From: Lachnospiraceae bacterium
Lineage (GTDB): Bacteria; Bacillota; Clostridia; Lachnospirales; Lachnospiraceae
DNA length: 64,000 bases
Reading direction: 5' to 3'
NCBI GenBank assembly: GCA_017624835.1
Contig: JAGAMG010000026.1
Location: forward strand, 101,857 to 165,856
Below, in pieces: positions 4,875 to 20,142 of this stretch. The notes under the pieces are model-generated. The model worked only from the letters and a program-made list of their open reading frames with translations. It was not told the DNA's origin and searched no databases. Each line of letters starts with the position of its first letter. Positions within the stretch are counted from its first letter, which is position 1. The translations under genes were made by a program, and so were the position numbers.

Positions 4875-4920
4875 AAATAGACTCTTTACATAAAAAGTTG
4901 ATTGTGATAATCTGTTAACA

Positions 4921-4953
4921 AGAGTTTCCGAGTGAATCTCGGAAGCTCTTTTC
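4921..4953 (+). terminator. Terminator after the NlpC/P60 gene
   Basis: A 12-bp stem (4921-4932 with 4938-4949, one G-T pair) has a 5-base loop and is followed by TTTTCTTT. Confidence 0.8.
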
Positions 4954-5078
4954 TTTATTCGTGACCGTTCGGTCTTTATTTCCAAATTTATTATTATATT
5001 TTTTATATTTTCTATTTACATTTTACCTGTTGTTTGGGGTTACTATTTTGTGTACTGAAAGGAGCAGAAGGTTTTTTT

Positions 5079-6086
5079 ATGACGTATGAACAATTCAAAA
5101 GAGAGCTTTTCCGTAATGTATCGGAGCAGGGAAGCCATAACAGGCAGTTCAGTCTGTTGGAGCGAGGAACCAAAGCTGCGGATGTAGTTTTGTCGGAAGA
5201 AAAAGAAGTTAGTGACCCGGGAGAGTTTTTTCCGGAGACAAGTATGAGTTCTTTAAATGGAAAAAGAGTGAAGGAGGATTATCTTTATGTACAATGGAAT
5301 GCCCCTATTCCGGCTTATATGAGAAGCTGGAATATTCGTGCATTATATGAGAAATATAAGCAGGAAGGGTGGCAGGGCGTTTTACCGGAAATCATAGGAG
5401 AAGGCTGTATTGTCCATTTGCCGGATAAGGACACAAAAAGGACAATTTATGAGAAAAACAGTGAACATTTTATCTTAAGACCGATGAATTACAGGCGAAA
5501 CAGAGAGGAACTTGCAGACTGTATCTATTGGCGATATGGAGATATTGCGCTGGTGTTGCATGAAGGATTGGGGGAAGAGGGGAGGGATTATATTACCGTG
5601 AAAATTCGCCGCTATATGGTAGAAAAGTGGAATATAGTACCGGAGAGAATGCTGACCAATGCTTTAATAAATACATATGCTAAGATGCCGCCAAGATTAT
5701 TTTTGGCAGGAGATGTACGTTTTTTCTATAATTGGGAAGATGGTGTTTTTATGCCCGGAGAATCGGGCAGAAGGACGATGGTTAAGCCCAGAAATCGTGA
5801 AGAAGCATTACGGGGTTATCGACTTACTACCACTAAAATGAAAGATGGAGCAATTGCAATTTTTTACCCGGGAGTGCAGGAACGAATTGGAGAACTTTTG
5901 GGTGGAGATTTTCTGGTAGGCTTTACCAGCATACATCAGGTGGTAATTCATCCTGCGCGCTACAAAAGTATAAATGACATGAAATCAGCAATTCGACGTA
6001 TAAACGCTGTGTATGATGAAAAGGATATGTTGACAAATACCATATATAGATATTGCTGTACAAAGAAGAAAATGGTGGAAGTATAA
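5079..6086 (+). CDS. DUF5688-like protein of unknown function
   Basis: 335 residues from the ATG at 5079. Upstream codons from the TTG at 5034 look like leader sequence, and AAAGGAG at about 5058-5064 serves the ATG. There is no signal peptide or membrane segment. I recognise the organisation of the DUF5688 family common in Lachnospiraceae. It has an N-terminal YEQFKREL helix, a YLYVQWNAPIPAYMRSWNI block, a central DIALVLHEGL strand, and a C-terminal block with FYPGVQERIGELLGGDF followed by TSIHQVVIHP. Members are usually recovered as stand-alone cytosolic proteins of unknown role. The family assignment is from memory of the motif pattern, so the function is unknown. Confidence 0.6.
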   Translation: MTYEQFKRELFRNVSEQGSHNRQFSLLERGTKAADVVLSEEKEVSDPGEFFPETSMSSLNGKRVKEDYLYVQWNAPIPAYMRSWNIRALYEKYKQEGWQGVLPEIIGEGCIVHLPDKDTKRTIYEKNSEHFILRPMNYRRNREELADCIYWRYGDIALVLHEGLGEEGRDYITVKIRRYMVEKWNIVPERMLTNALINTYAKMPPRLFLAGDVRFFYNWEDGVFMPGESGRRTMVKPRNREEALRGYRLTTTKMKDGAIAIFYPGVQERIGELLGGDFLVGFTSIHQVVIHPARYKSINDMKSAIRRINAVYDEKDMLTNTIYRYCCTKKKMVEV

Positions 6087-6106
6087 TGGCAGAATATTAA
6101 AAGAAG

Positions 6107-6160
6107 AACTCCGAGACTTTAGCCCTTGGATATATTATGAGTGCTTTGAGTCCCGGAGTT
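6107..6160. terminator. Convergent hairpin, possible bidirectional terminator
   Basis: AACTCCGAGACT (from 6107) pairs imperfectly with AGTCCCGGAGTT (to 6160) between two convergent genes. On the minus strand it is followed by a pyrimidine-rich stretch (CTTCTTTT). The T-run is weak on the plus strand. Confidence 0.5.
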
Positions 6161-6191
6161 ATAATATAGATTTCTTTTATGAGGTAATGAC

Positions 6192-7919
6192 TTAAATATT
6201 GCGGAAGCGTCCTACGGCGCGCATTAATTCCTGACTGATAGAATCATTATTGCGGGATTCTGCTTCAATGTCGGTCATGCCGGCATTTAGCATGCTTACG
6301 CTTTCGGCAGCCTCTGTAATACCACGACTGCTTTCCTCGGTACTGATGGAAATGCCATTAATACCATTTGTCATTTCTGAGATAACGGATTTTAAGCCTT
6401 CAGCCTGCTGACGGAAGAATGCCATTTCCTTTTCCATTTCTACGGCATCTTCCTGATATTGCTGTGTGGAATTTAGGAAAACTTCATAATCCTGCATTAC
6501 ATTTTCACTGGTAAAGGTTAGCATTTCTTCTGCATTATTTGCAAGCTGTTCCACTGCGGCAATTACCATCTGACTGATTTCCTGAATATTATTGGCAGTT
6601 TTGCTGCTTTGCTCTGCCAATAGACGAATCTGGTCTGCTACTACAGCAAAACCTCTTCCTGCTTCACCGGCTCTGGCTGCCTCGATAGAAGCATTTAATG
6701 CAAGGAGATTGGTCTGACTTGCAATGTCCAAAATGTCTCCGGTTAATTCTTCAATCTTGTTTACATCATGGCTACGGGTAATGGCTTCGCCGAGAGATGC
6801 CTTAATGGTGCTAACCATGCCTTGAGCGGATTGATAGCTTTCCTCAGCGCGGTTTTGAACCTGAATAGCACGTCCCTTCATATCAACAGCAAAAGCAGAA
6901 CCGGTATTGGTCTGGTTACTAACCTGTTCCATAGTGGTCATGATATTTTCAGCACCGGCATCCATTTCTGTAACGGTTGCAGATACTTCTTCCATGGTTG
7001 CAGAGAGTTCCTCCATAGCAGCGGAAATATCACTTGCACGGTCAGTTGCCTGCTCTACCTGAGCATTTACGTTGGATGCACTTTGCTCTAATGCATAGGA
7101 GTGATTTTTAATTTCCAGCATGATTTTCTGTAATTGATCGATGAAAAGATTGATACCATTGACCAGACGTCCGATTTCATCCACTTTTTTGGTTTTGATA
7201 CGAGTGGTCAGGTCACCGTCATCATTTTCAATTTTTTTAATCATTTGATCTAATTGTGCGGTTGCCTTGATGGTAGGTGTTACGACACTACGAATCATGA
7301 TGAACATAATGGCAAAGGATATAACCAAAGTAACAATACCAAGGGTGGTATTTACGGTATAGGTTTCGTTGCTGGCATCATTGTTGGCAGTAACCTGCTC
7401 AGTAATTTTAATATTGTAGGCTTCCACTAATGAATCCACCTTGCCGGTTAAATCATTAAGGGCATTATCTAACTTTTTCTTACCTTCGGCCTGTCCTAAA
7501 TCAGCCATTTCTTTGCGAACTGCGGTTAGAGCGTCATAGGAAGTCAAAATCTCTGCATACATAGCATTCAGATTAGCATCCCCCGCAGCTTCGTTATAAA
7601 CATTTAACTCTTCAATTGCCGTGGTTAATTCTGTAGCAGCATTGGCAACGTTGGCACCTGCCTCGGTAATATTCAAGTTCTGACCACCATTGTACAGAAT
7701 TTCAAGAGCGGCACTCATTTTGCCCATGGCAACTTCCATTTCATTGGTCTTTTGAATACCGGGCAAATAAATCTGACTGATATTATTGCTGTAGCCCCGT
7801 AGTTCTTTAATACTGAAGGTAATATAACCATTCAGAAAGCCGGCCATGAGTACAATAACCATAATCAAGGCAATGACTTCAACTCGCAAGCTTTTTCGTA
7901 AGAAGTTTAGAAATTTCAT
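6192..7919 (-). CDS. Methyl-accepting chemotaxis protein with four-helix-bundle sensor
   Basis: 575 residues. A first membrane helix (about 13-31) is followed by an extracytoplasmic, mostly helical sensor of ~150 residues rich in NAATEL and YNE patterns (4HB type). A second membrane helix lies at about 189-210. A HAMP domain with [18 protein letters not shown] follows, and then the long cytoplasmic signalling coiled coil. The conserved hairpin tip reads [20 protein letters not shown], the CheA/CheW contact site. No C-terminal CheR-tethering pentapeptide is present. It implies a motile cell, although no flagellar genes are in the window. An AGGGTGA-type ribosome site precedes the ATG. Confidence 0.93.
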
Positions 7920-8201
7920 TTGAAATCACCCTATTAACCTTTCTTTATGTAATGATAAAATAAACATATATTAAGAGTACCATATTTGAGAAAAGAAGTA
8001 AATAATTTGTGCGAAAATGCGTAAAATATGATAAAAATTGCTGGAGAATTGTGCAGATGGTACAAAAATAAGAAATGAAATGTATTGCTGATGTGGAAGT
8101 CGTATCCGATGGCGTTATGCATGTGATGTGTGAAAAGACCGAATGCATTTCAATTGTGTCGCTTTGGTTTTTGGTTGTATGGAAATGCAAAATATAAAAG
8201 A
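7920..8201. other. Intergenic region between divergent genes
   Basis: About 280 AT-rich bases lie between the receptor and the ParB-like gene. No gene is visible. One weak inverted repeat pairs GAAATGTATT (8077-8086) with AATGCATTTC (8142-8151). It would enclose about 55 bases but has no other support. Confidence 0.4.
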
Positions 8202-8230
8202 TTGACATGTGCAAGAAATAATGCTAATAT
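8202..8230 (+). promoter_or_regulatory. Consensus sigma-A promoter for the ParB-like/AbiEi operon
   Basis: TTGACA (8202-8207), a 17-base spacer and TAATAT (8225-8230), with an extended -10 TGC immediately before. It lies about 30 bases upstream of the AAAGGAG ribosome site. Confidence 0.85.
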
Positions 8231-8263
8231 ATGTGTGAATAAAAATGCAAAGGAGAAATGTAT

Positions 8264-8995
8264 ATGCACGATTTGCTTTTGGTATATCTAGATTATGATA
8301 TGGATGATGCGGAGGAAAGATTCTGTATTGAGGAAGAAATTAAATATCTTGATAAGATTGTTGAAAAGCAGGGCTGGAAGTATTCTGGGTTTGCGAATGC
8401 CTATATTCCAATAGTAAGAGAAAGAAGGGAAGAAACAGTAGATAAAGTATTAGAAGCCATTGCTTCAGATGAGCGACTTAAAAAATATTCACCTAAAGTA
8501 ATTAATAGCACTGTGACAAATTTCTGTTCTTTGAGAGAAATTGACCTGCAACACATGACAAAACCAAGTGATATAAAGTATAATCGTTATGAGAAGTATT
8601 ATCTGGAGAATAAAAAGCTGGCACATGGAATTATAGTGGATGAGGACAAAAAAATTCGAGATGGATATATATCGTATCTATTAGCAGAGAAATATGGGTG
8701 TAAGGTAGATATTATTGAAGTTCCAAAAGAAAGTTCTATTTCTAAGCTGGTAATTGGGCATCATGTGAAATATGATAAGGAGCAAAAAGCTTATGTTACG
8801 AAAACAAGTAGGAGATACGCTTGGGTTTACAATCTTCCGGAGGCGGTTGTTCCTAGAGACATTCTGCTTGTACGAACGAGCAAAGGAAATGCTTATATGC
8901 AGGTTGAAAGCATAACCTACATTGCGGGAAAGAGAGCCATTAATAAATATAAAAGAGTTAAAAGAAATATTACTGCGATTAAAGAGATTGATTAA
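8264..8995 (+). CDS. ParB-like-domain protein with DUF5839-like C-terminus, unknown function
   Basis: 243 residues. The ATG at 8264 is 8 bases from AAAGGAG; the ATG at 8258 is only 2 bases from it. There is no signal or membrane segment. Residues ~108-155 (YYLENKKLAHGIIVDEDKKIRDGYISYLLAEKYG) follow the ParB/sulfiredoxin-like pattern. There, 'IVVDE...DGYISYLLA' strands and helices form the nucleotide-binding core. The last ~65 residues (YAWVYNLPEAVVPRDILLVRTSKG) resemble the small beta-barrel DUF5839 module. It forms a tight operon with an AbiEi-type antitoxin gene 13 bases downstream, so a DNA-binding or nuclease-like partner is possible. The function is not known. Confidence 0.55.
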   Translation: MHDLLLVYLDYDMDDAEERFCIEEEIKYLDKIVEKQGWKYSGFANAYIPIVRERREETVDKVLEAIASDERLKKYSPKVINSTVTNFCSLREIDLQHMTKPSDIKYNRYEKYYLENKKLAHGIIVDEDKKIRDGYISYLLAEKYGCKVDIIEVPKESSISKLVIGHHVKYDKEQKAYVTKTSRRYAWVYNLPEAVVPRDILLVRTSKGNAYMQVESITYIAGKRAINKYKRVKRNITAIKEID

Positions 8996-9008
8996 AGGAT
9001 GATTTGAT

Positions 9009-9620
9009 ATGCAACAGAAAATTTATGATAGGTTAACAATAATAGAAAAAAATTGTACCGGATACATTGGTACGAAAGAATTATTACAGTATGGTTTAAC
9101 CAATCGTCAAATTGGTCGGTTGCAAGAAGAGGGTTATCTGGAAAAGATAGTGAATGGATTATTTTGGTTATCTAAAGCAAAACAAGATAAACCCAGCGAG
9201 TACAAACTAATTGAAGTGTGTTTGGTAAATCCCAATGCAGTTATTTGTGCAGAAAGTGCATGCTACATACATGGTTTGATTGATGTGGAACCTGAAAAAT
9301 TATCAATTGCTACAAAACGCAGCGATAGACATAAAATGGACATGCCCTTTGAAACCTCAAGGCATTATTATGCAGATTCTTATTTTGATAATAATATTAT
9401 AACGGTAGAGACTGCATATGGTGCTTATCGTATATATGATTTGGAACGGAGTATAAGTGATTGTATTCGTTTCAAAGACGAAATACATCCGGAAATTTAT
9501 GAGATGATTATTTCAAAGCATAGGAAGATGCAAGAAGATGCTATGGTGAAGAGAATGATAGCTTATGCAAAGGCAATGAAGTTTGAAAAGAAAATGCGTG
9601 AGGAGATTAGGAAGGAATAG
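9009..9620 (+). CDS. AbiEi-family (type IV) antitoxin-like protein
   Basis: 203 residues. The N-terminal ~55 residues form a winged helix (TGYIGTKELLQYGLTNRQIGRLQEEGYLEKIVNGLFWL) as in AbiEi antitoxins, which repress their own promoter. The remainder matches the AbiEi C-terminal fold, with AVICAESACYIHGLID, the VETAYGAYRIYDLERSISDCIR block and a Lys-rich tail. In AbiE systems the next gene encodes the AbiEii nucleotidyltransferase toxin. Here the operon ends in a strong terminator and no such toxin follows. Either the upstream ParB-like gene is its partner or the antitoxin is an orphan regulator. Family confidence is good; the role is inferred. Confidence 0.78.
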   Translation: MQQKIYDRLTIIEKNCTGYIGTKELLQYGLTNRQIGRLQEEGYLEKIVNGLFWLSKAKQDKPSEYKLIEVCLVNPNAVICAESACYIHGLIDVEPEKLSIATKRSDRHKMDMPFETSRHYYADSYFDNNIITVETAYGAYRIYDLERSISDCIRFKDEIHPEIYEMIISKHRKMQEDAMVKRMIAYAKAMKFEKKMREEIRKE

Positions 9621-9657
9621 TAATATATGGAGAATGAAATTTGGAATCGTGCTGAAT

Positions 9658-9701
9658 GCCCCCATAAGACTATTTAATTATGGTCTTATGGGGGCTTTTC
9701 T
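9658..9701 (+). terminator. Terminator after the AbiEi-like gene
   Basis: A perfect 13-bp stem (GCCCCCATAAGAC at 9658-9670 with GTCTTATGGGGGC at 9683-9695) has a 12-base loop and is followed by TTTTCTT. The next 320 bases to 10023 are AT-rich; I see no supported gene in them. Confidence 0.88.
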
Positions 9702-10023
9702 TATGCTATAGTCAAATAAAATGCATAAAATAGAGGGGAGGACTGTGCTAAAAAGGTATAATTTTAAGACATCGATTATTGTAGATACTACAGTGAAAGG
9801 TGTCTTTTTTGCTTTGCAGTATGTCTTGGAAATTCTTTATCAATATAATAATGGGAGTTCGACCTATTTGTGTAAGTTTGACTTACTTTCAGACTCGCAT
9901 AAGCAAAATGCGGACTTATTTTATTATGAATATGCATATAATGAATAAACTTTGGTATGAGGGGTGTAAGGGTTATACTATAAATATGAACAGAAAACAT
10001 ACGGGATGCAAAATCTACAGGAT

Positions 10024-10055
10024 ATCTTGAATTTTCTCAAGATTCGTGGTATGAT
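10024..10055 (+). promoter_or_regulatory. Promoter and palindromic operator of the restriction-modification operon
   Basis: A promoter TTGAAT (10027-10032), 17-base spacer, TATGAT (10050-10055) has an extended -10 TGG. A perfect inverted repeat ATCTTGA-N6-TCAAGAT (10024-10043) covers the -35 hexamer. The placement suits repression, plausibly by the helix-turn-helix domain fused to the methyltransferase encoded next. Confidence 0.75.
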
Positions 10056-10113
10056 ATTTGGGTATACAATCATTAGGTGGGTAAGGATTAGAATTAGGCA
10101 GGAGAGTAAACTA

Positions 10114-11406
10114 ATGCAAATAAGCTATAAGCCGCTATGGCACACTCTTTTAGAAAAAGGTATGTCCAAAGAGGACCTTAGGATAAAGGCGAAACTTACA
10201 ACAAATGCAATTGCTAATATGGGAAAGAATCAAAATATTAGCATGGCAACGTTGCTGAAGATATGTGAGGCATTACAATGCGGCTTTGACGGCGTGGTTG
10301 AAATTGTTGGGCTTCCACCTAAAGTCGCTCCAGAAGGTCAAACAACAATAACAAAGAAGGAAGTAGAAACAATGCACAGATTGAATCCGCCGAGATTAGT
10401 TTCACTATTCTCTGGGTGTGGAGGAATGGACAAGGGATTTGAGGATGCTGGATATCAGCGAGTGTGGGCTAATGATTTTGACGCAGATGCCCAGGCGGTA
10501 TTTAAGCTCAACCTTGGAGAAATAGATGGTAGGGATATAACAAAGGTGCCCGTTGAGGATATTCCTGACTGCGATATCATTACAGCAGGCTTTCCGTGCC
10601 AGCCTTTTTCCAATGCTGGAAATCGGCGTGGAGTATATGATTCGCGTGGTGAATTGTACTTAGAGTGCTTACGCATTATAGAGCATAAAAAACCCAAGGC
10701 GGTCTTGTTTGAGAACGTTAAAGGTCTGTTATCTTCAAAGCATCAGAGTGGAAAACAACTCATAGAAGTCATCAAAGAAGATTTAGAAAAACTCGGTTAT
10801 AGGGTCAATTACAAAGTTGTGAATGCATCAGATTATGGTGTTCCTCAAAATAGGGAAAGAATGATTCTTATCGGACTTCGTGAGGATTTACAGAAAACTT
10901 TCGAGTTCCCTCCGGTGCAGGAAGATAAGAGCAGTTTGACTTTACGCCATATACTTGATGTTCCTGTCGAGGTTCCAAATCAAACATACTGGCCATATTC
11001 GCCACAGGCACAGGCAATGATTGAGATGATTCCTGAAGGAGGCTCATGGAAAAGTATCCCGTATGAAAAGCTTTCACCTCGTTTCCAAAGAATCCGTGAT
11101 GATATGAAACGCTATCATGCGCCTAACTTTTATAGACGCTTTAGCAGAGATGAAATAAATGGAACCATAACAGCATCCGCTCAGCCTGAAAACTGCGGGA
11201 TAACTCATCCTATTGAGAACAGAAGATATACCATTAGGGAAATTGCCAGAATACAGACATTCCCAGATGACTTTGTTTTTATTGATGATTCACTTAAAGA
11301 CATTGTGGCTATGTATAGGGTGATTGGAAACGCAGTTCCCTGTCACTTAGCAGAAGTAATTGCAAATGCTATATATGAACAAGCGTTTAAGGAGGAGAAA
11401 GAATAA
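10114..11406 (+). CDS. XRE-type HTH fused to DNA (cytosine-5) methyltransferase
   Basis: 430 residues from the ATG at 10114, which has AGGAGAG 7 bases upstream. Residues ~1-65 are a Cro/CI-like helix-turn-helix (LEKGMSKEDLRIKAKLTTNAIANMG...ISMATLLKICEAL). The rest is a complete C5 methyltransferase. Motif I is LVSLFSGCGGMDKGF, the catalytic PCQ is at Cys162, ENV lies at ~200-202 and QNRER at ~245-249. A target-recognition region follows, then motif X (VIGNAVPCHLAEVIANAI). It would methylate cytosine in a specific site to protect self DNA. M.SsoII-type enzymes are known to use an N-terminal HTH to repress their own promoter, and a palindrome covers this promoter. The stop overlaps the next start by one base. 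Confidence 0.92.
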   Translation: MQISYKPLWHTLLEKGMSKEDLRIKAKLTTNAIANMGKNQNISMATLLKICEALQCGFDGVVEIVGLPPKVAPEGQTTITKKEVETMHRLNPPRLVSLFSGCGGMDKGFEDAGYQRVWANDFDADAQAVFKLNLGEIDGRDITKVPVEDIPDCDIITAGFPCQPFSNAGNRRGVYDSRGELYLECLRIIEHKKPKAVLFENVKGLLSSKHQSGKQLIEVIKEDLEKLGYRVNYKVVNASDYGVPQNRERMILIGLREDLQKTFEFPPVQEDKSSLTLRHILDVPVEVPNQTYWPYSPQAQAMIEMIPEGGSWKSIPYEKLSPRFQRIRDDMKRYHAPNFYRRFSRDEINGTITASAQPENCGITHPIENRRYTIREIARIQTFPDDFVFIDDSLKDIVAMYRVIGNAVPCHLAEVIANAIYEQAFKEEKE

Positions 11407-13103
11407 TGGCAACAGTATATGTTGATCCTGTATGCGTTAAGGATTCGATTGATTTTTTTATTTCGCAAGAGTACACATCGCCAGAGCAGATAGGACTCTT
11501 TTTCCTGTTCAAGGCAAATAAGTTCAATAGTCGTGAATACCAAACTTATGATGCTACGGGAGCGCAAAAGGCAAGACTAACACGATACCTTTATGATTTA
11601 TGTGCGCTGTTCGATGCAAAGCAGGAAAACGGCGGTAAGTATGTATCACTATTTCCGTTCTCAATGGATCGGACAATTAAAAAGACCACTTATTATAATG
11701 GCGGGACGGAGTTCAAGCAGGTCATTGGGCGTGTGAAAGATACAATGGATAATACGCTCATTGACGATGGTAAATATCTTAGGAAAGATGAACTTGATGG
11801 TTCAAAGTACAAGTTCGCACCAAATTATGTCGATATGCTGTACTCTGATTTTTTGAAAGGGCACAGAATCTCGTTACAGAAACTTGCTGCTTGGTATTTC
11901 CGCTTCTATGCATTTGATGTAGATGATGAGTGGGTTGAAAATCTGACAGCGGATAATTTTGAGACCTTTACCCGTATTTGCACCAAGAAGCTGATTGAAG
12001 ATTTGAACATTACGGCAGATGAACTGTCAACGATGTTTGATACAACAGACGGAATTATCAAATACAGTCAGACGGGTATAACGGGCGAAGAGATACGCTC
12101 GAAGTTTGCGTATGAAACAAATGCGACACCAGAGGTTTTTCCGCTTACAGCACCAGTTTCGTATATGTTTTCAGATATTAGCATCACCAGGGAGGAAGTG
12201 ACTAATTTGGCTGCTCCTCATGGCGATAATATTACTGAAGAAGAATTATCGGAGCTATTGATTGATACGAGGCAGGTGGTTTTGTCGGGGCCTCCGGGAA
12301 CGGGCAAGTCTTATATTTCCGACAAGGTAAAAGTGGGTTTCGACCATAGCTATTTAATTCAGTTCCATCCTAATTTGACATATGAGCAGTTCATTGGCGG
12401 TAGCACATTTGATGAGAATGGTGTGGTGCATCCTAAGGCCGGTGTGTTTCTCGAATTCTGTCACGAGGCTGGAAAGGCTGAAAATGCCAATCAGAAATAT
12501 CTCTTCATGATAGATGAGATAAACCGTGGAAATGTATCTAAAATATTCGGTGAGACCATACTCGCTTTGGACAGGGAGTATACAGTTCAATTGCCGACAA
12601 CGTTAATCTCAAAAGATGGAACAACAATTACGGAATTTAGAATTCCAGAGAATGTATTCATTCTTGCCACAATGAATTCTGCTGATAGAAGCATAGCCCT
12701 TGTAGACTATGCTATTCGGAGACGATTCGCATTTGTTGATTTCTATCCGAATAGTGAAGTTGTTGATTATGAATCGGATTATTCCCTGCTTGACGATATT
12801 AAGGTCGGCAAAGTCATGGATGGAATAAACGAAAAAATGTATAGCGTTTTAGGAGATGCTGATCTTTTGCTTGGACAGTCATACTTTTTACCGAAATGGG
12901 CAAGAGATGAAGTAAGCGGAAAAATCAAATGGACACCACAGATTCTTAAAAGGCTTTTCAATTACTATGTAATACCAATTATTGAAGAATACACCTACGG
13001 GAACAAGAGATACTTGCAGAATATTCTCGGCGATAAATTGGTTGGACGAATCAGCAATGAGGAGGAATTTATCGAGGAGCTGAAGGCACAATTGTTAAAG
13101 TGA
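11406..13103 (+). CDS. McrB-like AAA+ GTPase restriction subunit
   Basis: 565 residues. Residues ~1-270 are a family-specific N-terminal region without a recognised modified-base-reading domain. The C-terminal half is a McrB-type AAA+ motor. Walker A is GPPGTGKS (295-302), Walker B is MIDEINRGN (368-376), and the McrB signature MNSADRS (423-429) is followed by the arginine-rich AIRRRF. In this family GTP hydrolysis drives translocation, and the McrC partner supplies cleavage. The start codon overlaps the methyltransferase stop (TAATG), implying translational coupling. That coupling argues for a LlaJI/BsuMI-type restriction-modification enzyme rather than a stand-alone methylation-dependent type IV enzyme. 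Confidence 0.9.
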   Translation: MATVYVDPVCVKDSIDFFISQEYTSPEQIGLFFLFKANKFNSREYQTYDATGAQKARLTRYLYDLCALFDAKQENGGKYVSLFPFSMDRTIKKTTYYNGGTEFKQVIGRVKDTMDNTLIDDGKYLRKDELDGSKYKFAPNYVDMLYSDFLKGHRISLQKLAAWYFRFYAFDVDDEWVENLTADNFETFTRICTKKLIEDLNITADELSTMFDTTDGIIKYSQTGITGEEIRSKFAYETNATPEVFPLTAPVSYMFSDISITREEVTNLAAPHGDNITEEELSELLIDTRQVVLSGPPGTGKSYISDKVKVGFDHSYLIQFHPNLTYEQFIGGSTFDENGVVHPKAGVFLEFCHEAGKAENANQKYLFMIDEINRGNVSKIFGETILALDREYTVQLPTTLISKDGTTITEFRIPENVFILATMNSADRSIALVDYAIRRRFAFVDFYPNSEVVDYESDYSLLDDIKVGKVMDGINEKMYSVLGDADLLLGQSYFLPKWARDEVSGKIKWTPQILKRLFNYYVIPIIEEYTYGNKRYLQNILGDKLVGRISNEEEFIEELKAQLLK

Positions 13104-13113
13104 GGGTGAGTAT

Positions 13114-14322
13114 ATGCAAATGCAGTCAATAACACTCGATCAAGGCGGACTGCTAAGCCTATATCCTCATGAGATACCTGTAATTCAGGGAATATTGTCA
13201 AAAAGAGGTATGTCATGGGACTGCCTTGACACAAAGCAAGGTATCATTAAGCTCCCACAGCAGTATATTGGCTATATCGGCTTGCCTGATCGCAAAATTA
13301 TAATAAAGCCAAAGCATCCTGGAATAACAATCAGCCACATTCTGAGGGTGTATTTCTTCTTGTACTCTGCTCAGTATTCAGATTTGGATACGCCCATGTA
13401 CGATGTGGAAACAGGAAATGATGTGAACTTGATAGCTATGTTCATTCAAGAAATGCTGTCTGTTGTTCATAAAGGTTTACCTGTAGAGTATAGCGAAAAA
13501 GAAGAAGACCTTAGTTTTATTAAAGGCAATATGCAGGTTGTCCCAACCTCATTGAATATCATGATGCGAAGAAGGGATGCTTTTCGATGCGTTTATGATG
13601 ATCTTACACGAGATATTCCTATAAACAGATTGCTTTTGGCTGCCGCAAAAAAAATAGAATCTCATGTTCAAAATTCAGATATAGCATATATAATCCGGCA
13701 GTTTGAGAACGTAGACTATACGAACATCCCTGATGATGTTGGGTTTAATAAGAACACGGCTTATTGTAAGAAGGCCGCTTCTCTTGCTTATATGATTTTG
13801 AACGATCTTACATTATCAACAGATGGAGAATCTTCATCTGGAGAAAGTCTGTTGATAAACTTTGATAGAGTTTTTGAGGACTTTATAAAGAAAGTGTTGA
13901 TGGAATACTCAAACCTTGGAAAGTTTTCATATTGGACATCATCAAAAAGTTTTGCCTTTTGCCATCAAGGAGATGAGTATTTTGAACGGTCATATCTCCC
14001 TGATTTGCTCTATGATTATATGGATAAAAACGGACGGCAAACCGCACGAGCGATTTTGGATATGAAGAACAAAACCTCTCTTCCGTTCCGTAATGATGAC
14101 ATATATCAAATGGTGTTTTATGGACAGATGCTTTCGTGTAAAAAGATAATTTTATGCTATCCGGGAAATGAGAATAGGAGCAACACAGCTCTTAGGTTTA
14201 ACGATGAGAAATTCTTTCTGCATAAAATATATGGTTCATACATGAACCTTGCAGGAAATAGTGCAAAGGAATTTAAGGACAACATATCTTCGTTTGTATA
14301 TCGAGTAGAATGTTTATTATAA
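13114..14322 (+). CDS. McrC-like nuclease subunit
   Basis: 402 residues, starting 10 bases after the McrB-like stop behind a GAGGG site. An N-terminal beta-rich region (IIKLPQQYIGYIGLPDRKIIIKPK) is typical of McrC. A PD-(D/E)XK nuclease follows, with Asp297 in YLPDLLYD and the D-x-K at 316-318 (ILDMKNK). Family members bind the McrB hexamer, stimulate its GTPase and cut DNA. It is the last gene of the operon. A nested hairpin with a T-rich tail lies 50 bases downstream. Confidence 0.88.
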   Translation: MQMQSITLDQGGLLSLYPHEIPVIQGILSKRGMSWDCLDTKQGIIKLPQQYIGYIGLPDRKIIIKPKHPGITISHILRVYFFLYSAQYSDLDTPMYDVETGNDVNLIAMFIQEMLSVVHKGLPVEYSEKEEDLSFIKGNMQVVPTSLNIMMRRRDAFRCVYDDLTRDIPINRLLLAAAKKIESHVQNSDIAYIIRQFENVDYTNIPDDVGFNKNTAYCKKAASLAYMILNDLTLSTDGESSSGESLLINFDRVFEDFIKKVLMEYSNLGKFSYWTSSKSFAFCHQGDEYFERSYLPDLLYDYMDKNGRQTARAILDMKNKTSLPFRNDDIYQMVFYGQMLSCKKIILCYPGNENRSNTALRFNDEKFFLHKIYGSYMNLAGNSAKEFKDNISSFVYRVECLL

Positions 14323-14372
14323 CTATTACAGATTTTATCTGAAAGAAGAATTTTATATGTTTACAGCAGGGG

Positions 14373-14465
14373 CTGATGTGCTAAGCTGTTAAAAGGGCGA
14401 TAGGCTCTGGTTTCTATTGAATGGTAGGGATCAGAGCCTTTCTTATTTGCCTATCAGCACATCAG
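14373..14465 (+). terminator. Nested hairpin and likely terminator after the restriction operon
   Basis: The inner stem AGGCTCTG (14402-14409) pairs with CAGAGCCT (14432-14439), followed by TTCTTATTT. The outer stem CTGATGTGCT (14373-14382) pairs exactly with AGCACATCAG (14456-14465). The inner part would terminate transcription. The outer 10-bp arms are unusual for a terminator. Confidence 0.65.
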
Positions 14466-14615
14466 TGGGTTCATGCTGTCAACATATGAGGAAGGGATAA
14501 CAAATGCCAAGTTTCGGGTTCTAGGTCTCCTAGTGTGAACGCCCTGGGCGTGAAGTTTTCTGCGTAAAGTTCATGCAACTTTAGGCGTATCCTGCTTTCT
14601 TTATGTATTGGCTTG

Positions 14616-14756
14616 TTCGATAGTGCCGAATTTGTTCGGAGTTGCCGAATTGCTAGGATTTATGCGGGTTTGAAGCTGTTCGGCATTGCCGAACGGTCAT
14701 AAGTGGAATAAGTGGTGTTCGACAGTATCGAATGGAATTTGTTCGATGTCATCGAA
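14616..14756. repeat. Five TTCGR-N5-YCGAA palindromic sites
   Basis: Sites are at 14616-14630, 14635-14649, 14679-14693, 14718-14732 and 14742-14756. Each is a 15-mer with TTCG and CGAA arms separated by seven bases, each preceded by G and followed by T or C. The half-sites extend to TTCGA/G and C/TCGAA. Centres are 19, 44, 39 and 24 bases apart. Such clusters are typical of operator, partition or replication (iteron-like) sites of a DNA-binding protein. There is no intact gene within 290 bases on the left or 615 bases on the right. Confidence 0.8.
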
Positions 14757-14912
14757 TTTAATTTGGTTAATAAATTACAACTTTTTTTGCAATCAGCTTT
14801 TTTTGACCCTAAGTACTAAACATAAGGAAAAGAAAACGCTGAGAGGTCTAACTTGAGAAATACTCTCATAGTATTGGAAAGAAGGACAAGCTTAAGGAGG
14901 TGGAGATTCCGC

Positions 14913-15146
14913 TTGGAGCAGAGGAAACTAAATTATCGTTTTCACAATCCGAATTCGGCGGAGGATACCGCTGACTTCTAGTGTAAGCTTTTGATTGAAG
15001 CAAACGCAGGTAAGGTGGAACGTGCGATTAAAGAAGCTGCATCAAGGTGTGCAGAGGAAAGTGAGTACATAGCAGAGCCGGAGGAAATGAAGGCAGATAC
15101 ACCGGAGGAAGAAACGGTGAATATAAGACGAAGAAGAGCAAGGTAA
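14913..15146 (+). pseudogene. Remnant of a small mobile-element-type protein gene, in-frame stop
   Basis: Reading from 14913 gives 77 sense codons interrupted by TAG at 14979-14981. The translation contains LNYRFHNPNSAEDTADF before the stop and LLIEANAGKVERAIKEAA after it, ending in an Arg-rich tail (INIRRRRAR-like). The sequence remains fully open on both sides of the stop and reads like a real protein. From memory it resembles small proteins carried by clostridial integrative elements. The overlapping frame also stays open over the first part, so a frameshift is possible too. It lies in a gene-free stretch of about 1 kb (14323-15371). Confidence 0.55.
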
Positions 15147-15172
15147 ATTTAAGTTGTTTTTTACAGAAACTA

Positions 15173-15241
15173 AAGGAACTTAAATTATTTTATGAAAATT
15201 TGAGTTCCTATTTAAGTTCGTGAATGATTTTTAAGTTCCTT
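15173..15241. promoter_or_regulatory. Inverted and direct AAGTTCC-type repeats
   Basis: AAGGAACTTAAA (15173-15184) is the exact reverse complement of TTTAAGTTCCTT (15230-15241). Two related copies (GAGTTCCTA and TTTAAGTTCG) lie between them. The layout resembles a cluster of protein-binding sites upstream of the AlbA_2-type gene. Confidence 0.5.
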
Positions 15242-15279
15242 GTAATATCGCTTGATTAATGGTAAATTAAATTATAAAA

Positions 15280-15341
15280 TTAGTCATAGAAAGTCATTGT
15301 TTAGTTATAGAATTTAGTCATAGACACACAATAATGACTAT
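15280..15341. promoter_or_regulatory. TTAGTCATAGA direct-repeat array upstream of the AlbA_2-type gene
   Basis: TTAGTCATAGA occurs at 15280-15290 and 15314-15324, with TTAGTTATAGA at 15301-15311. An inverted copy of the TAGTCAT core (AATGACTA) lies at about 15332-15339. The array ends 30 bases before the start codon and probably binds a regulator, perhaps the encoded protein itself. Confidence 0.55.
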
Positions 15342-15371
15342 ACGAAGAAATATAGTAAAGGGGCTGATGAT

Positions 15372-16715
15372 TTGAACTTAGGTATTGAAACAGAAACATT
15401 AGAATTTAAAAAATCTACCGGCGAGTTAAAAGAAGCAGTGCAGTCAATTTGTGCAATTTTGAATAAACATCAGCATGGAGAATTATATTTTGGAGTAAAG
15501 CCTGACGGAACGGTAATAGGACAAGTTGTTACAGAGGAATCTTTGCGAGAAGTTAGTCAGAAAATCAAAAATTTTATTGAACCGAAAATTTATCCGGAAA
15601 TCAAAAAGGTAGTTATTGATGGTAGAGACTGTATTCATGTAAAATTTGAAGGGAACCAGGTTCCTTATTTTGCGTATGGCGTGGCAAAGATTCGTGTGGC
15701 TGATGAAGATTTGACCATGTCTCCGGAGCAGATAACAGAATTGTTGTTGGGTAGTGGCAGAGAAGGTAATCGTTGGGAAAGTCTGGTGTCCAATAAGACG
15801 ATTGATGATATCGACGAGGATCTTTTAAAGAAATATACAACACAGGCACACGAGGTAGGAAGAATCGCAATCTCATATACTGACAAAGAAACTGTCTTAA
15901 ATCAGTTAGAATTGACAGAGGGTAACGCTTTGCTAAATGCAGGAAAAGTGCTGTTTAGTGATGATATTGTACAAGACTTGCAGATGGCGATTTTTGCTAC
16001 GAACGAAAGGTTGACTTTTAATGATATCCAACGTTATCATGGACCGGTGTTAAAGTTGGTAGATATAGCCGAAAGTTATATTAAGAGCAATATTCATTGG
16101 AGAGTAGAATTTACCGGAGCTTTACAGCGTACTGAGATACCTGAGATTCCGGTGGATGCGATTCGTGAGGCATTATTAAATTCGTTCTGTCATAAGGATT
16201 ATGCATCTGGGCAGAGCAATGAGGTCGCAATTTATAAGGATAGAGTTGAGATTTATAATCCTGGAGCATTCCCAGAAGGATATGAGCCACAAGACTTTAT
16301 TGATAAGGCTGAGAGACCGATTCGTAGAAATCCTAAGATTGCAAGAATGCTTTACTATTCTAAAGATATTGAGAGTTTTGGAACAGGATTAAAGCGTATT
16401 GCAGAGGCTTGTGATGCTGCCGGAGTCAGATACGAATTTAAGAAAATGAAGTCCGGATTTGTAGTTTGTTTTTATCGGTCAGAAGAAAAAGCCGATAAAA
16501 AGCCGATAAAAGCTGATAAAAAGCCGATAAAAACTAATAGATATGAAATTATTATAGAATATGTGAAAGTAAATGGTTCTATTAATAATAAAGAAGCAAG
16601 AGAACTATTGGCATTGGCAGATTCAACAGTAAAACGTATATTGAAAGATATGGTGGAAAAAGATATGCTAATTATAGAGGGTGAACGCAAGGCAAGGAAA
16701 TATTTATTGAAATAG
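15372..16715 (+). CDS. AlbA_2 (Schlafen-type) ATP-binding transcriptional regulator or helicase-like protein
   Basis: 447 residues. The TTG start at 15372 has AAAGGGG 8 bases upstream and gives the canonical N-terminus NLGIETETLEFKKSTGELKEA; no ATG is near. Residues ~8-125 form the AlbA_2/Schlafen domain (GELYFGVKPDGTVIG). Residues ~240-330 form a GHKL-type ATP-binding region (IREALLNSFCHKDYASGQSNEVAIY...NPGAFPEG...FGTGLKRI). The last ~60 residues are a winged helix (NKEARELLALADSTVKRILKDM). Between them is a Lys-rich linker of two DKKPIK-type repeats. Such proteins occur often in defence islands and on mobile elements as regulators. Biochemical function here is unproven. Confidence 0.8.
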   Translation: MNLGIETETLEFKKSTGELKEAVQSICAILNKHQHGELYFGVKPDGTVIGQVVTEESLREVSQKIKNFIEPKIYPEIKKVVIDGRDCIHVKFEGNQVPYFAYGVAKIRVADEDLTMSPEQITELLLGSGREGNRWESLVSNKTIDDIDEDLLKKYTTQAHEVGRIAISYTDKETVLNQLELTEGNALLNAGKVLFSDDIVQDLQMAIFATNERLTFNDIQRYHGPVLKLVDIAESYIKSNIHWRVEFTGALQRTEIPEIPVDAIREALLNSFCHKDYASGQSNEVAIYKDRVEIYNPGAFPEGYEPQDFIDKAERPIRRNPKIARMLYYSKDIESFGTGLKRIAEACDAAGVRYEFKKMKSGFVVCFYRSEEKADKKPIKADKKPIKTNRYEIIIEYVKVNGSINNKEARELLALADSTVKRILKDMVEKDMLIIEGERKARKYLLK

Positions 16716-16756
16716 TTAGATTTTAATTAGTAAAGAACTACAAAACATCAGTCATA

Positions 16757-16807
16757 CCCCAAGAATCCATTACATACAATGTAAAAACGATTCTTGGGGG
16801 TTTTCTT
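16757..16807 (+). terminator. Terminator between the AlbA_2-type gene and spoIIID
   Basis: An 11-bp perfect stem (CCCCAAGAATC at 16757-16767 with GATTCTTGGGG at 16789-16799) is followed by GTTTTCTTTT. Its 3' arm supplies the only G-rich ribosome-site-like sequence for spoIIID, whose TTG start overlaps the end of the T-tract. Confidence 0.8.
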
Positions 16808-17068
16808 TTGAAGGATTATATTGAGGAGCGGGCAATTAATATTGCCACCTATATTATTGACTGTAATGCTACAGTACGGCAGACCGCAAAGGCTTTTGGA
16901 GTAAGTAAGAGTACGGTACATAAGGACGTCACGGACAGATTAATGCAGATTAATCCATCCCTAGCCAAACAGGCAAGGAAGGTTTTGGATGTAAATAAAT
17001 CCGAGAGGCACATCCGTGGAGGTTTGGCAACCAAAGAAAAATATCAGCATCTTCATCAGGATGCATGA
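16808..17068 (+). CDS. spoIIID: Sporulation transcription factor SpoIIID
   Basis: 86 residues, family length. It starts at TTG 16808 with the canonical MKDYIEERAINIATYII. The helix-turn-helix is TVRQTAKAFGVSKSTVHKDVTDRL. The C-terminal basic segment RHIRGGLATKEKYQHL is the second DNA-contacting part. SpoIIID controls mother-cell genes with sigma-E and sigma-K, so the organism is, or descends from, a spore former. A G-run (16795-16800) 8 bases upstream is the only candidate ribosome site, and it lies in the 3' arm of a terminator-like stem. Confidence 0.93.
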   Translation: MKDYIEERAINIATYIIDCNATVRQTAKAFGVSKSTVHKDVTDRLMQINPSLAKQARKVLDVNKSERHIRGGLATKEKYQHLHQDA

Positions 17069-17091
17069 AAGGCATAAAGTGAGAAATTACA

Positions 17092-17120
17092 TTTACATTT
17101 TCGTTTAACCGCGTTAAACT
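17092..17120 (+). promoter_or_regulatory. Promoter with palindromic operator for the MATE gene
   Basis: TTTACA (17092-17097), a 17-base spacer and TAAACT (17115-17120). The perfect palindrome GTTTAACCGCGTTAAAC (17103-17119, 7-bp arms) occupies the spacer and -10, the position expected for a repressor site. Confidence 0.65.
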
Positions 17121-17160
17121 GTACAGGAATATAAAGCGATAGGCGGAAAAGAGGATTACC

Positions 17161-18489
17161 ATGTTATATTCCGGAAAAGACTTAAGAAAACTAATTATAC
17201 CACTTATATTTGAGCAATTGCTGTCCCTTTTGGTGGGATTGGCGGATACCATTATGATTTCAGGCGTGGGAGAGGCAGCAGTATCAGGAGTTTCCCTGGT
17301 GGACACGGTAAATGTACTGATTATTAATGTGTTTGTGGCATTCGGAACCGGGGGCGCTGTTGTGGCAGGCCATTTCTTGGGGCAAAAGGATGAGGAGAAT
17401 GCGGGTCGTGCGGCATGGCAGGTGAATTTGTTTGCTGCATTGACAGCAATTGTGGTAACCTTTCTCTTTATTGCCTTTCATGATGGCTTACTTAGGCTAA
17501 TGTTTGGACGGGTGGATGAAGCTGTTATGAGCAATGCCAAGTCCTATTTGATTATCACAGCCATTTCCATTACGCCTCTGGCTGTTTATAATGCCTGTGC
17601 AGCATTGTTCCGTGCCATGGGTGATTCTAAAACCACATTATATATATCCTTACTTATGAACGTATTAAATGTGATGGGCAATGCTATCTTAATATATGGA
17701 ATCCATATGGGAACGGCGGGGGCTGCCATATCTACTACAGTATCAAGAACCATAGCTGCGGCAATTATTTTTATTTTGATGTTTCAGAATAAGCGTACCA
17801 TTAATTTTCGCGGAAAGTTTACTCTTCGCTTTGAATGGGGAATGATTCGAAAGATTTTATATATCGGCGTGCCCAACAGCTTAGAAAACAGCCTGTTCCA
17901 ATTGGGGAAAATATTGACCTTAAGTATGGTTTCCACCTATGGAACTTATGCCATAGCAGCCAATGCAGTATGTAATACGCTTGCTGCCTTTAATATGCTT
18001 CCCGGTCTGGCTGTTAACAGCGCCCTTCTGGCAATTGTGTCGGTTTGTATTGGAGCAGGAGAAGTGGAGCAGGGACGGTATTATACTAAGAAATTAATGA
18101 AAGTAGCAAATATTACCCTGATATTTATGTCTGCCTTTATTATAATCTGTTCCAAGTGGATTATTGGTTTCTATCATTTAAGTCCTGAGGCGGCAACACT
18201 TGCAAGACAAGTACTTTGTTATCATGCGGTTATGGCAGTATTCTTTTGGATACCATCCTTTTCCTTGCCCAATACTTTCCGTGCAGCAGGAGATGTTTTT
18301 GTACCAATGGGTATTGCCATATTTTCCATGTGGGTTTTCCGATTGGCGTTATCCTATGTGTTGGGCACCACGCTGGGTCTTGGTCTTATGGGAATCTGGA
18401 TTGCCATGTCAGTGGATTGGATATTCAGAGCGGTTTGTTATCTCATCCGTTTTCATGGAAGAAGCTGGGAACGCAAGATTTTGGCATAA
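17161..18489 (+). CDS. MATE-family efflux transporter
   Basis: 442 residues with about 12 hydrophobic segments and the MATE opening (LIIPLIFEQLLSLLVGLADTIMI). The family exchanges Na+ or H+ for cationic drugs or metabolites across the cytoplasmic membrane. Other conserved features are GTGGAVVAGHFLGQKDEENAGRA-like loops and the RAMGDSKTTLYISL segment of the first half. The substrate is not predictable. The promoter is overlaid by a perfect palindrome, so expression is probably controlled by a repressor whose gene is not adjacent. Confidence 0.92.
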   Translation: MLYSGKDLRKLIIPLIFEQLLSLLVGLADTIMISGVGEAAVSGVSLVDTVNVLIINVFVAFGTGGAVVAGHFLGQKDEENAGRAAWQVNLFAALTAIVVTFLFIAFHDGLLRLMFGRVDEAVMSNAKSYLIITAISITPLAVYNACAALFRAMGDSKTTLYISLLMNVLNVMGNAILIYGIHMGTAGAAISTTVSRTIAAAIIFILMFQNKRTINFRGKFTLRFEWGMIRKILYIGVPNSLENSLFQLGKILTLSMVSTYGTYAIAANAVCNTLAAFNMLPGLAVNSALLAIVSVCIGAGEVEQGRYYTKKLMKVANITLIFMSAFIIICSKWIIGFYHLSPEAATLARQVLCYHAVMAVFFWIPSFSLPNTFRAAGDVFVPMGIAIFSMWVFRLALSYVLGTTLGLGLMGIWIAMSVDWIFRAVCYLIRFHGRSWERKILA

Positions 18490-18518
18490 AAAACCTGTTA
18501 CGATTATTTCGTAACAGG
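18488..18518 (-). terminator. Minus-strand terminator of the small membrane-protein gene
   Basis: CCTGTTACGA (18494-18503) pairs with TCGTAACAGG (18509-18518). On the minus strand the stem is followed by six T (18493-18488). No T-run exists on the plus strand, so it serves the 47-residue gene. It abuts the convergent MATE stop codon. Confidence 0.8.
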
Positions 18519-18647
18519 AATGGAGAAACGCACTCTACGGTAAATTTTCCAAATTATAACGGCGGGAAGACTTACTACCAAATATAAAGTAGAGAGGATT
18601 CCGCAGGCACCTCCCACGATTGCAATAATCAGAGTTAATGGGTTCAT
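18504..18647 (-). CDS. 47-residue single-span membrane protein
   Basis: ATG at 18647 to TAA at 18504. The translation starts MNPLTLIIAIVGGACGILS, continues as one hydrophobic helix of about 30 residues, and ends in a basic tail (IWKIYRRVRFSIPVTK). AAAGG lies about 12 bases before the start. The terminator described above overlaps its stop codon, with a T-run only on this strand. That is strong evidence for a transcribed unit. No family recognised. It may be a toxin-like or membrane-associated small protein, but nothing here proves a role. Confidence 0.6.
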   Translation of the reverse strand: MNPLTLIIAIVGGACGILSTLYLVVSLPAVIIWKIYRRVRFSIPVTK

Positions 18648-18807
18648 TTATGATACCAACCTTTCTATAAATTATGTAACAAAATGTGTACTTTATTATC
18701 TTAAAGCCTTATAGAAAAATAAAAAATAGATTGAGCAAACCCTTAACGCTTTTTTGTCGGGATATTAACACTTTCTTAACAAGGCTAATTCCTTAAGATT
18801 TCTTCAT

Positions 18808-18836
18808 TTGCGTAAATATACATTATGATGTATACT
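18808..18836 (+). promoter_or_regulatory. Probable promoter of the UDP-sugar pyrophosphorylase gene
   Basis: TTGCGT (18808-18813), 17 bases, TATACT (18831-18836). The leader that follows contains a small imperfect hairpin (GAATTCCG with CGGGATTC, about 18858-18888). I do not recognise it as a riboswitch. Confidence 0.55.
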
Positions 18837-18918
18837 TTAACATGTTAACGAAAAAGTGAATTCCGGTAGGGCAGCCTCACGGGATTCAGCCACGGATAAA
18901 AGATGAGGAGAAGTAAAA

Positions 18919-20142
18919 ATGACTTTAGCAGAGGCAAAGGAAAAACTGACAAAGTATGGTCAGGAGCATGTATTGAAATATTATAATGAACTTTCAGGTG
19001 AAGAACAGCAGGAACTGCTTGCGCAGATTGAAGCTACAGATATGAGTATACTGTCTGCATGTAAGCATAAAGAAGATTTAGTAAAAAAAGGTGTTCTTTC
19101 TCCTTTGGCTGCTATGGAACTTGAGGAAATTGAACAGTGCAAGGACGGCTTTACTGCAACCGGTCTGGAAGCAATTAAGGCAGGCAAGGTAGGAGCAGTG
19201 CTTTTGGCAGGAGGAATGGGAACTCGTCTTGGTTCTGATAATCCCAAGGGAATGTACAATGTGGGAATTACCAGAGAACTTTATATTTTTGAGTGTCTGA
19301 TAAATAATTTGATGGATGTGGTGCGTCAGGCAGATTCCTGGGTGCATTTGTTTGTAATGACCAGCGACAAAAATAATGATGCCACCGTCAGCTTCTTGCA
19401 GGAGCATGATTATTTTGGATATAACAAGGAATATGTACATTTCTTTAAACAGGAGATGGCAGCAGCAACGGATTATGAGGGTAAGATTTACTTAGAGGAG
19501 AAGGGAAAGCTTTCAACATCTCCCAATGGAAATGGAGGTTGGTTTATTTCCTTGCAGACAGCAGGGCTTTTGGATTTGATTCATGATAAGGGAATTGAGT
19601 GGCTGAATGTATTTTCTGTGGATAATGTATTGCAGCGAATTGCTGACCCTTGCTTTGTGGGGGCTACCATTCAGAAAAACTGTGTGGTGGGATCCAAGGT
19701 GGTGCGTAAGAGTGCGCCCGATGAAAAGGTGGGCGTAATGTGCCTTGAGGATGGGAAACCCTCCATTGTAGAGTATTATGAACTGACCGATGAAATGATG
19801 AATGCAAAGGATGAGAAGGGTGATCCTGCTTATAACTTTGGGGTTATTTTAAATTATCTTTTCCATGTAAAGGAAGTGGAGGAGTTAATGGCAAATCTTC
19901 CCCTTCATATTGTGGAAAAGAAAATTCCTTATTTGGATGAAAACGGTAATCCGGTAAAGCCTGAGGAACCCAATGGCTACAAGTTTGAAAGCCTGATTCT
20001 GGATATGATTCATCAGATGGATAGCTGTCTGCCCTTCGAAGTAGTTCGTAATCGGGAATTTGCTCCTATTAAAAATAAGACAGGAGTGGATTCTGTAGAA
20101 AGCGCCAGAGCATTGCTGCAGGAAAATGGTGTGACTCTATAA
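18919..20142 (+). CDS. UTP--sugar-1-phosphate uridylyltransferase (UDPGP family)
   Basis: 407 residues. The nucleotide-binding signature LLAGGMGTRLGSDNPKGMYNVG starts near residue 95. The family also shows FVMTSDKNND, SPNGNGGWF and a VDNVL metal-binding segment. These eukaryotic-type pyrophosphorylases make UDP-glucose, UDP-GlcNAc or UDP-GalNAc from UTP and the sugar-1-phosphate. galE lies 142 bases downstream, so a joint role in UDP-glucose/UDP-galactose supply for cell-surface glycans is plausible. The exact sugar is uncertain. Confidence 0.85.
   Translation: MTLAEAKEKLTKYGQEHVLKYYNELSGEEQQELLAQIEATDMSILSACKHKEDLVKKGVLSPLAAMELEEIEQCKDGFTATGLEAIKAGKVGAVLLAGGMGTRLGSDNPKGMYNVGITRELYIFECLINNLMDVVRQADSWVHLFVMTSDKNNDATVSFLQEHDYFGYNKEYVHFFKQEMAAATDYEGKIYLEEKGKLSTSPNGNGGWFISLQTAGLLDLIHDKGIEWLNVFSVDNVLQRIADPCFVGATIQKNCVVGSKVVRKSAPDEKVGVMCLEDGKPSIVEYYELTDEMMNAKDEKGDPAYNFGVILNYLFHVKEVEELMANLPLHIVEKKIPYLDENGNPVKPEEPNGYKFESLILDMIHQMDSCLPFEVVRNREFAPIKNKTGVDSVESARALLQENGVTL

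Follow-up and report, generated by a model that had tools for sequence, protein, structure and literature searches.

A cassette of three genes, encoding a C5 cytosine methyltransferase (MTase) with a helix-turn-helix (HTH) domain, an McrB-like protein and an McrC-like protein, is located within 64,000 nucleotides of DNA from Lachnospiraceae bacterium (contig JAGAMG010000026.1 of assembly GCA_017624835.1; this whole stretch is called the window in the following). Judged from its sequence, the cassette is very probably a complete restriction-modification (RM) system, in which host DNA is marked by the MTase and foreign DNA lacking the mark is destroyed by an McrBC-like nuclease of two parts. A C5 MTase beside McrB genes with this type of N-terminal domain (NTD) and McrC genes is no chance arrangement, as it recurs in ten other loci that carry the NTD on plasmids, phages, viral contigs and genomes. 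The three genes lie head to tail on one strand, preceded by a candidate promoter, at the following positions of the window:

10024..10055, + strand, candidate promoter/operator element of 32 nt (ATC-TTGAAT-(17 nt)-TATGAT, palindrome ATCTTGA-N6-TCAAGAT, then TTCGTG)
10114..11406, + strand, C5 cytosine MTase with N-terminal Cro/C1-type HTH, 430 aa (PF13443 and PF00145; ribosome-binding site and relatives)
10939..11211, + strand, presumed target recognition domain (TRD) of the MTase, 91 aa, border with motif IX included (located between QNRER and GNAV)
11406..13103, + strand, McrB-like AAA+ subunit, 565 aa, residues 1-280 being the NTD (AAA_5)
13114..14322, + strand, McrC-like PD-(D/E)XK nuclease subunit, 402 aa (PF10117)

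In the proposed mechanism, the MTase would place 5-methylcytosine (5mC) on its target site, and its HTH domain would probably bind the palindrome in the cassette's own promoter and limit expression of the operon. The same site, when unmethylated, would be read by the NTD of the McrB-like protein, whose AAA+ ring, probably driven by GTP, would recruit the McrC-like protein, leading to translocation and a DNA cut. From the data below we infer the cleavage of unmethylated DNA, the shared site, the autorepression and the nucleotide used. By the logic of type II systems a single MTase fits a symmetric site, and the one MTase of the cassette suggests such a site here.

Proteins of the cassette and the McrB N-terminal domain

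The preliminary description of this DNA had proposed an HTH-MTase fusion coupled to McrB- and McrC-like genes, which was borne out by Pfam. A single protein carries both HTH_26 (PF13443, E 8.9e-10) and DNA_methylase (PF00145, E 2.7e-83). Residues 291-441 of the McrB-like protein matched AAA_5 (PF07728, E 7.9e-14), and the McrC-like protein matched family PF10117 (E 1.5e-32) with no match to PF09563. The motifs are intact in the MTase (GFPCQPFS, FENVK, QNRER and GNAV), in the McrB-like protein (Walker A GPPGTGKS, IDEINRGN and MNSADRS) and in the McrC-like protein (PDLL at residue 296 and AILDMKNK at residue 313). The segment that we take to be the TRD was placed following the usual anatomy of C5 MTases. 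Scores against the NCBIfam equivalog models were far under the cut-offs (130.5 of 637 bits for McrB and 46.8 of 338 bits for McrC), and PADLOC placed the McrB-like protein among type II nucleases with a weak match (E 2e-11) but gave none for the McrC-like protein. All three genes are under purifying selection, with ratios of nonsynonymous to synonymous substitution rates (dN/dS) of 0.03-0.07 each in comparison with two genome contigs (L002 and L003), whose McrB-like proteins are 95 and 93% identical to that of the window.

The overlap of the MTase stop with the McrB start in TAATG and the gap of 10 nt between the McrB and McrC genes had been described before and are both exact. A start at 10024 had to be revised, as there is no start codon at this position, where the conserved promoter/operator element begins. 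The longest MTase open reading frame (ORF) opens at 10006, but an AGGAGAG ribosome-binding site precedes the ATG at 10114 and the relatives' proteins align from this ATG; therefore, the MTase start was placed at 10114.

It had also been stated that the N-terminal approximately 270 residues of the McrB-like protein are not recognisable, and this holds, as residues 1-280 had no Pfam match at E<=1. Of the nine members of the NTD family that were scanned, the window's included, eight were without a Pfam match, the ninth having a single one at E 0.23, and a PDB search with a profile of nine NTDs gave nothing convincing (best E 0.1). In the PDB sequence search, solved McrB chains were found to cover the AAA part only, with the E. 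coli chains lying within residues 279-550. As far as similarity searches can tell, the NTD is none of the known readers represented in Pfam or PDB, and these two databases gave no sign of the known reader of modified bases that type IV enzymes carry at the N-terminus of McrB. The NTD looks undescribed and is probably the part that reads the DNA target. No description of the NTD family, of its partnership with the TRD or of the promoter element was found in the literature searched, REBASE and most subscription papers being beyond reach, and the accessible part of the McrB census (CoCoNuT, PMC11090510) does not describe them either.

Association and exchange of MTase and nuclease modules

Besides L002 and L003, the loci carrying the NTD are a Staphylococcus epidermidis plasmid (L034), a Fructilactobacillus plasmid (L035), a Ruminococcus phage (L036), two viral contigs found by NTD search (L038 and L039), a viral contig reached through its TRD (L044), and two of 397 genomes of the family (L056 and L057), among which the third match was the window's own genome. 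The NTD search of 398 phylum genomes identified only the window's own copy. Searches of viral contigs with the McrB of the window and with that of L057 revealed no further NTD relatives, and the McrB search of 196 related genomes gave no match spanning the whole NTD.

Exactly one ORF matching the C5-MTase profile was present in 11/11 NTD-type stretches, the window (4001-20000) counted, the profiles having been built partly from members of this set. For comparison, 60 of the 67 other McrB-matching places in the 196 related genomes were surveyed (the seven weakest were left out), and a PF10117-type McrC, called by our own profile within 200 bp of the McrB-like gene, was found at 24 of them. A C5 MTase within 200 bp was identified in four of these 24 loci (L078-L081), and 20 had no C5 MTase in the stretch fetched, some sides of which were short at contig ends. 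The contrast of 11/11 with 4/24 corresponds to a Fisher p of 3e-6, though the loci are not independent. A chance neighbourhood in a defence island was considered as well and was rejected by this survey. The other 36 places were without such an McrC, and the seven of them with an MTase within 200 bp may be LlaJI-type.

The four control loci with an MTase appear as another McrBC class beside C5 MTases (L078:2764-8317, L079:4407-9884, L080:2860-8298 and L081:2746-8319). Their McrB proteins have 920-983 aa and their McrC proteins 451-509 aa, PF10117 was found in 3/3 nucleases scanned, and AAA matches were present at both ends of McrB in L078 and L079, the two that were scanned. A similar MTase-McrB pair was seen in L082.

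Searches with the NTD and the TRD led to the same records. With the NTD as query (E<=1), two of 72,556 plasmid records were found. The 91-aa TRD query (E<=0.01) returned both of them (E 6e-32 and 2e-31), together with two from Vibrio at E 0.009. From 50,697 phage records, each of the two queries returned one record, which was identical. One TRD is common to 10/11 NTD-type MTases. In L057, a different TRD (20-23% identity) accompanies a divergent NTD (20-24%), in which 14 of the 27 residues that do not vary among the other ten are kept.

The TRD also reaches beyond the NTD-type loci. Eight viral loci were found by TRD, of which three have the NTD-type McrBC (L041 and L042, which are the contigs of L038 and L039, and L044) and one (L043) adjoins another putative nuclease pair. 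The remaining four (L045-L048) had no AAA, McrC or NTD match, with flanks short on one side in L045-L047 and full in L048. The four TRD matches in a search of 398 genomes were the window's own, one in genome G404 (L053) beside the other nuclease pair, and two weak ones with other neighbours. No target site could be inferred from TRD relatives: of the two Vibrio MTases, the one inspected has no annotated nuclease beside it, the TRD had no convincing match in PDB (best E 0.94), and the nuclease pair of L043 and L053 gave no confident match in Pfam, NCBIfam or PADLOC from which a site could be taken.

In these two loci (L043:5395-8444 and L053:2931-5978), the MTase with the same TRD stands beside a protein of 464-467 aa, which has no Pfam match in L043 and no NCBIfam match in L053, and a small PD-(D/E)XK-like protein, matching PDDEXK_3 in L043 at E 0.005, below the cut-off. 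It is possible that they represent a further RM type of the same specificity.

The MTase and the nuclease have separate histories. In the core region, the MTase of the window shares 87-89% identity with its counterparts in L036, L039 and L056, whereas identity to the same loci is 30% for the NTD, 40% for the AAA part and 29% for McrC. Nonsynonymous divergence (dN) between the window and L036 is 0.13 for the MTase, 0.65 for McrB and 0.77 for McrC, and the corresponding values for the window and L038 are 0.10, 0.14 and 0.12, synonymous divergence (dS) being saturated in both comparisons. In the MTase tree, L034 groups with L035 (99/99), and in the McrC tree (99/98) and the AAA tree (92/98) L035 groups with the phage set. 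In approximately unbiased (AU) tests, the nuclease groupings were rejected on the MTase data (p 3e-6 and 5e-4); conversely, the AAA (p 2e-4 and 0.007) and McrC (p 6e-5 and 0.016) data rejected those of the MTase. As the trees conflict, MTase and nuclease modules have been exchanged with the TRD kept in one family, which points to selection for a shared target. It may further be proposed that the NTD is a so far undescribed module for DNA reading, which would recognise the site of its partner MTase in the unmethylated state, and that exchange of whole nuclease modules of about 30-40% identity at fixed MTase specificity has left divergent readers of one site, in addition to the diverged L057 reader with a different TRD. 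We consider the chances of this proposal to be evenly balanced.

Gene order varies among the relatives. An IS1182 element separates MTase and McrB in L034, the MTase follows McrC in L035 and L057, and L003 has the same three genes between unrelated flanking genes. By sequence, the HTH is present at the MTase N-terminus in eight loci (with Pfam run on two of these MTases, those of the window and L035), L044 and L057 have another extension, and L034 has none. In L044 (4855-6456) the HTH of the MTase is replaced by a domain that looks ASCH/PUA-like by eye, with no Pfam match. A similar-looking three-gene set with an ATPase adjoins the cassette in L002 (2210-5396), where it is antiparallel to the cassette, and in L038 (391-3436), where it is parallel; the ATPase is Rad50-like according to NCBIfam in L038 (E 9e-7, below the cut-off) and by eye in L002. 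This set is perhaps a second defence system travelling with the cassette. In the window, the cassette is immediately preceded by a gene (9009-9620) for an antitoxin-like protein of AbiEi type (PADLOC E 1.8e-35). The next gene upstream (8258-8995) has no Pfam or NCBIfam family above the cut-off, and downstream of the cassette (15372-16715) a protein with a Schlafen/AlbA_2 domain and a RecG-like HATPase_c_4 domain is encoded.

A candidate operator upstream of the MTase gene

The 32-nt element is found 80-92 nt before the MTase ATG in 7/7 closest HTH-MTase loci (window, L002, L003, L036, L038, L039 and L056), with the conserved core ATCTTG-N7-TCAA-NN-TTCGTG in all seven. It has the form of a sigma-A-like promoter with a spacer of 17 nt, in which a palindrome, at its clearest CTTGA-N6-TCAAG and degenerate in some members, covers the -35 region and the spacer and is followed by TTCGTG. 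In the 8 of 21 pairs that were compared, the element is 72-88% identical and its flanks are 20-46% identical.

The core pattern occurs exactly once in the genome of 2.93 Mb, and with up to three mismatches it occurs at 25 places as compared with 17 for the reversed control. At this tolerance, about 0.8 matches are expected by chance in the 64-kb window; thus, the weight of the element rests on its conservation and exactness. A scan of viral contigs with the operator pattern gave 29 stretches, two of them known cassette contigs (L038 and L039), chance matches being expected in such a scan.

By analogy to M.SsoII, the element suggests autorepression by the HTH domain at this candidate operator. 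There, transcription of the RM genes is controlled by the N-terminal part of the C5 MTase itself, according to the accessible part of the report (PMC3978073). An N-terminal HTH is present in the MTase described here (PF13443), and the palindrome is a candidate for its operator.

Alternative explanations and comparison with known systems

The preliminary description had favoured an RM system over a type IV enzyme beside an unrelated MTase, a view that gained support from the C5 MTase in every NTD-type locus, the occurrence of NTD and TRD in the same records, and the separate histories with the TRD kept. It is very unlikely that the nuclease is a type IV McrBC that attacks methylated DNA and stands beside an unrelated or orphan MTase, even though it belongs to PF10117 and its AAA part has its best solved matches in E. 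coli McrB. The regular presence of a C5 MTase at NTD-type loci as compared with other loci of AAA and PF10117 type argues against this, as do the co-occurrence of NTD and TRD, the failure of the Pfam and PDB sequence searches to connect the NTD convincingly with any known reader of modified bases, and the low scores to the NCBIfam McrB and McrC equivalogs. Furthermore, a nuclease directed to 5mC would probably turn on the host if an MTase of its own were encoded in the same operon, and type IV enzymes have no cognate MTase, whereas here the MTase gene overlaps the gene of McrB, whose cognate MTase we infer it to be.

Still less likely is a decayed or inactive cassette, in which the MTase would now serve as a regulator or provide an epigenetic mark only. 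A sporadic distribution, with the cassette in 3/397 family genomes and 1/398 phylum genomes (the own genome counted in both), would fit such decay, but catalytic motifs are intact, dN/dS is low in all three genes, and L003 keeps the three genes together in an unrelated neighbourhood. The least probable explanation is an abortive or addiction-like function, in which the nuclease would kill the cell upon loss or inhibition of the mark or of the MTase and defence would be a side effect. Two plasmids, a phage and viral contigs do carry the cassette in addition to genomes, and the MTase gene lies upstream with overlapping stop and start and a promoter that is likely regulated. RM systems in general can show addiction-like behaviour, and by sequence such a cassette is indistinguishable from an ordinary RM system.

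Several points weigh against an RM function of the cassette. The nuclease family is closer to canonical McrBC than to LlaJI, the 11 loci include two sets of near relatives and are thus not independent, L044 was reached by way of its TRD, and members of the set served to build the profiles. The clades tested by AU were named after the trees had been seen, and L057 was left out. MTases of the TRD family also occur without McrBC (L043 and L053, and L045-L048); hence, the MTase does not need an McrBC partner. In L035, the eighth HTH cassette, the HTH is diverged and an exact match to the element is absent.

Type IV is the usual assignment of McrBC nucleases. If the cassette does function in RM, it would be a further case of a PF10117 McrBC turned into an enzyme blocked by modification, probably by a change of the reader domain, and loci with PF10117 should be checked for an adjacent MTase before they are annotated as type IV. 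The family would provide paired MTases and nucleases in which readers can be compared at presumably constant specificity, along with a candidate operator open to a quick test. If the NTD has the proposed role, the reading code of type II enzymes of the McrBC type becomes directly testable.

Known systems are compared here on the basis of the accessible parts of the papers cited. With E. coli McrBC, the window system shares the AAA domain (E 4.4e-37 to 6hz4) and the McrC family PF10117. It differs in that E. coli McrBC has no cognate MTase, has a methylated target and carries an N-terminal domain that is unmatched by the window protein. In the McrB census, NxD GTPases, like those with NxxD, were often associated with DNA MTases (PMC11090510), and MNSADRS of the window protein is the NxxD form, as in the MTase-associated McrB GTPases of that census.

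LlaI, BsuMI and LlaJI have been grouped as McrBC-related systems with an MTase pair (PMC2614495), and LlaJI, with its two MTases, restricts unmethylated DNA in vivo (PMC1459862). The cassette had been called LlaJI/BsuMI-like, and as far as the presumed mode of action is concerned this fits: an McrB-like subunit and an McrC-like nuclease stand beside C5 MTases, and the target is unmethylated in LlaJI and BsuMI. Membership was rejected on McrC family and MTase number, since the nuclease is PF10117 and not RE_LlaJI (PF09563), and there is one MTase in place of the pair that serves an asymmetric site in the LlaJI subtype. BsuMI and LlaI have a three-gene restriction cassette with a short McrB-like protein of about 340 aa (PMC1459862), whereas the window has two nuclease genes and an McrB-like protein of 565 aa.

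The closest description is that of single-MTase McrBC-like systems such as PcaI and SpyI, and the features of this class, namely one C5 MTase, an McrB-like AAA protein with its own NTD and an McrC-like PD-(D/E)XK nuclease, are all found here. A block of restriction by the system's own methylation, which also characterises this class, would be in line with the partnership of MTase and nuclease and with the joint occurrence of NTD and TRD, though these speak for it only indirectly. PcaI of Pectobacterium was studied experimentally, is directed to CCNGG as determined by nanopore sequencing, and was reported to be active on unmethylated DNA (PMC8989522). It has one C5 MTase with McrB-like and McrC-like subunits, the N-terminal part being unlike McrB; it differs in its Dcm-like M.PcaI (CCNGG), and its likeness to the window system is drawn from the published description. 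SpyI from prophage phi1207.3 (PMC4260502; locus L037), whose MTase M.SpyI recognises CCAGG, CCTGG, CCCGG and CCGGG (PMC10082018), likewise has a single HTH-C5 MTase fusion, an AAA subunit and an McrC-like nuclease. In SpyI, the MTase is on the opposite strand and has HTH_3 in place of HTH_26, the nuclease matches PF09563 (RE_LlaJI) and not PF10117, as does that of a Dorea phage, and the AAA subunit has no match to the NTD profile. A single MTase carrying its own regulator domain had been regarded as a new compact design, which does not stand, as this design is already present in SpyI, and PcaI is a single-MTase McrBC-like system as well. The overall architecture is already known, and the NTD family, its TRD partnership and the promoter element appear to be the new part.

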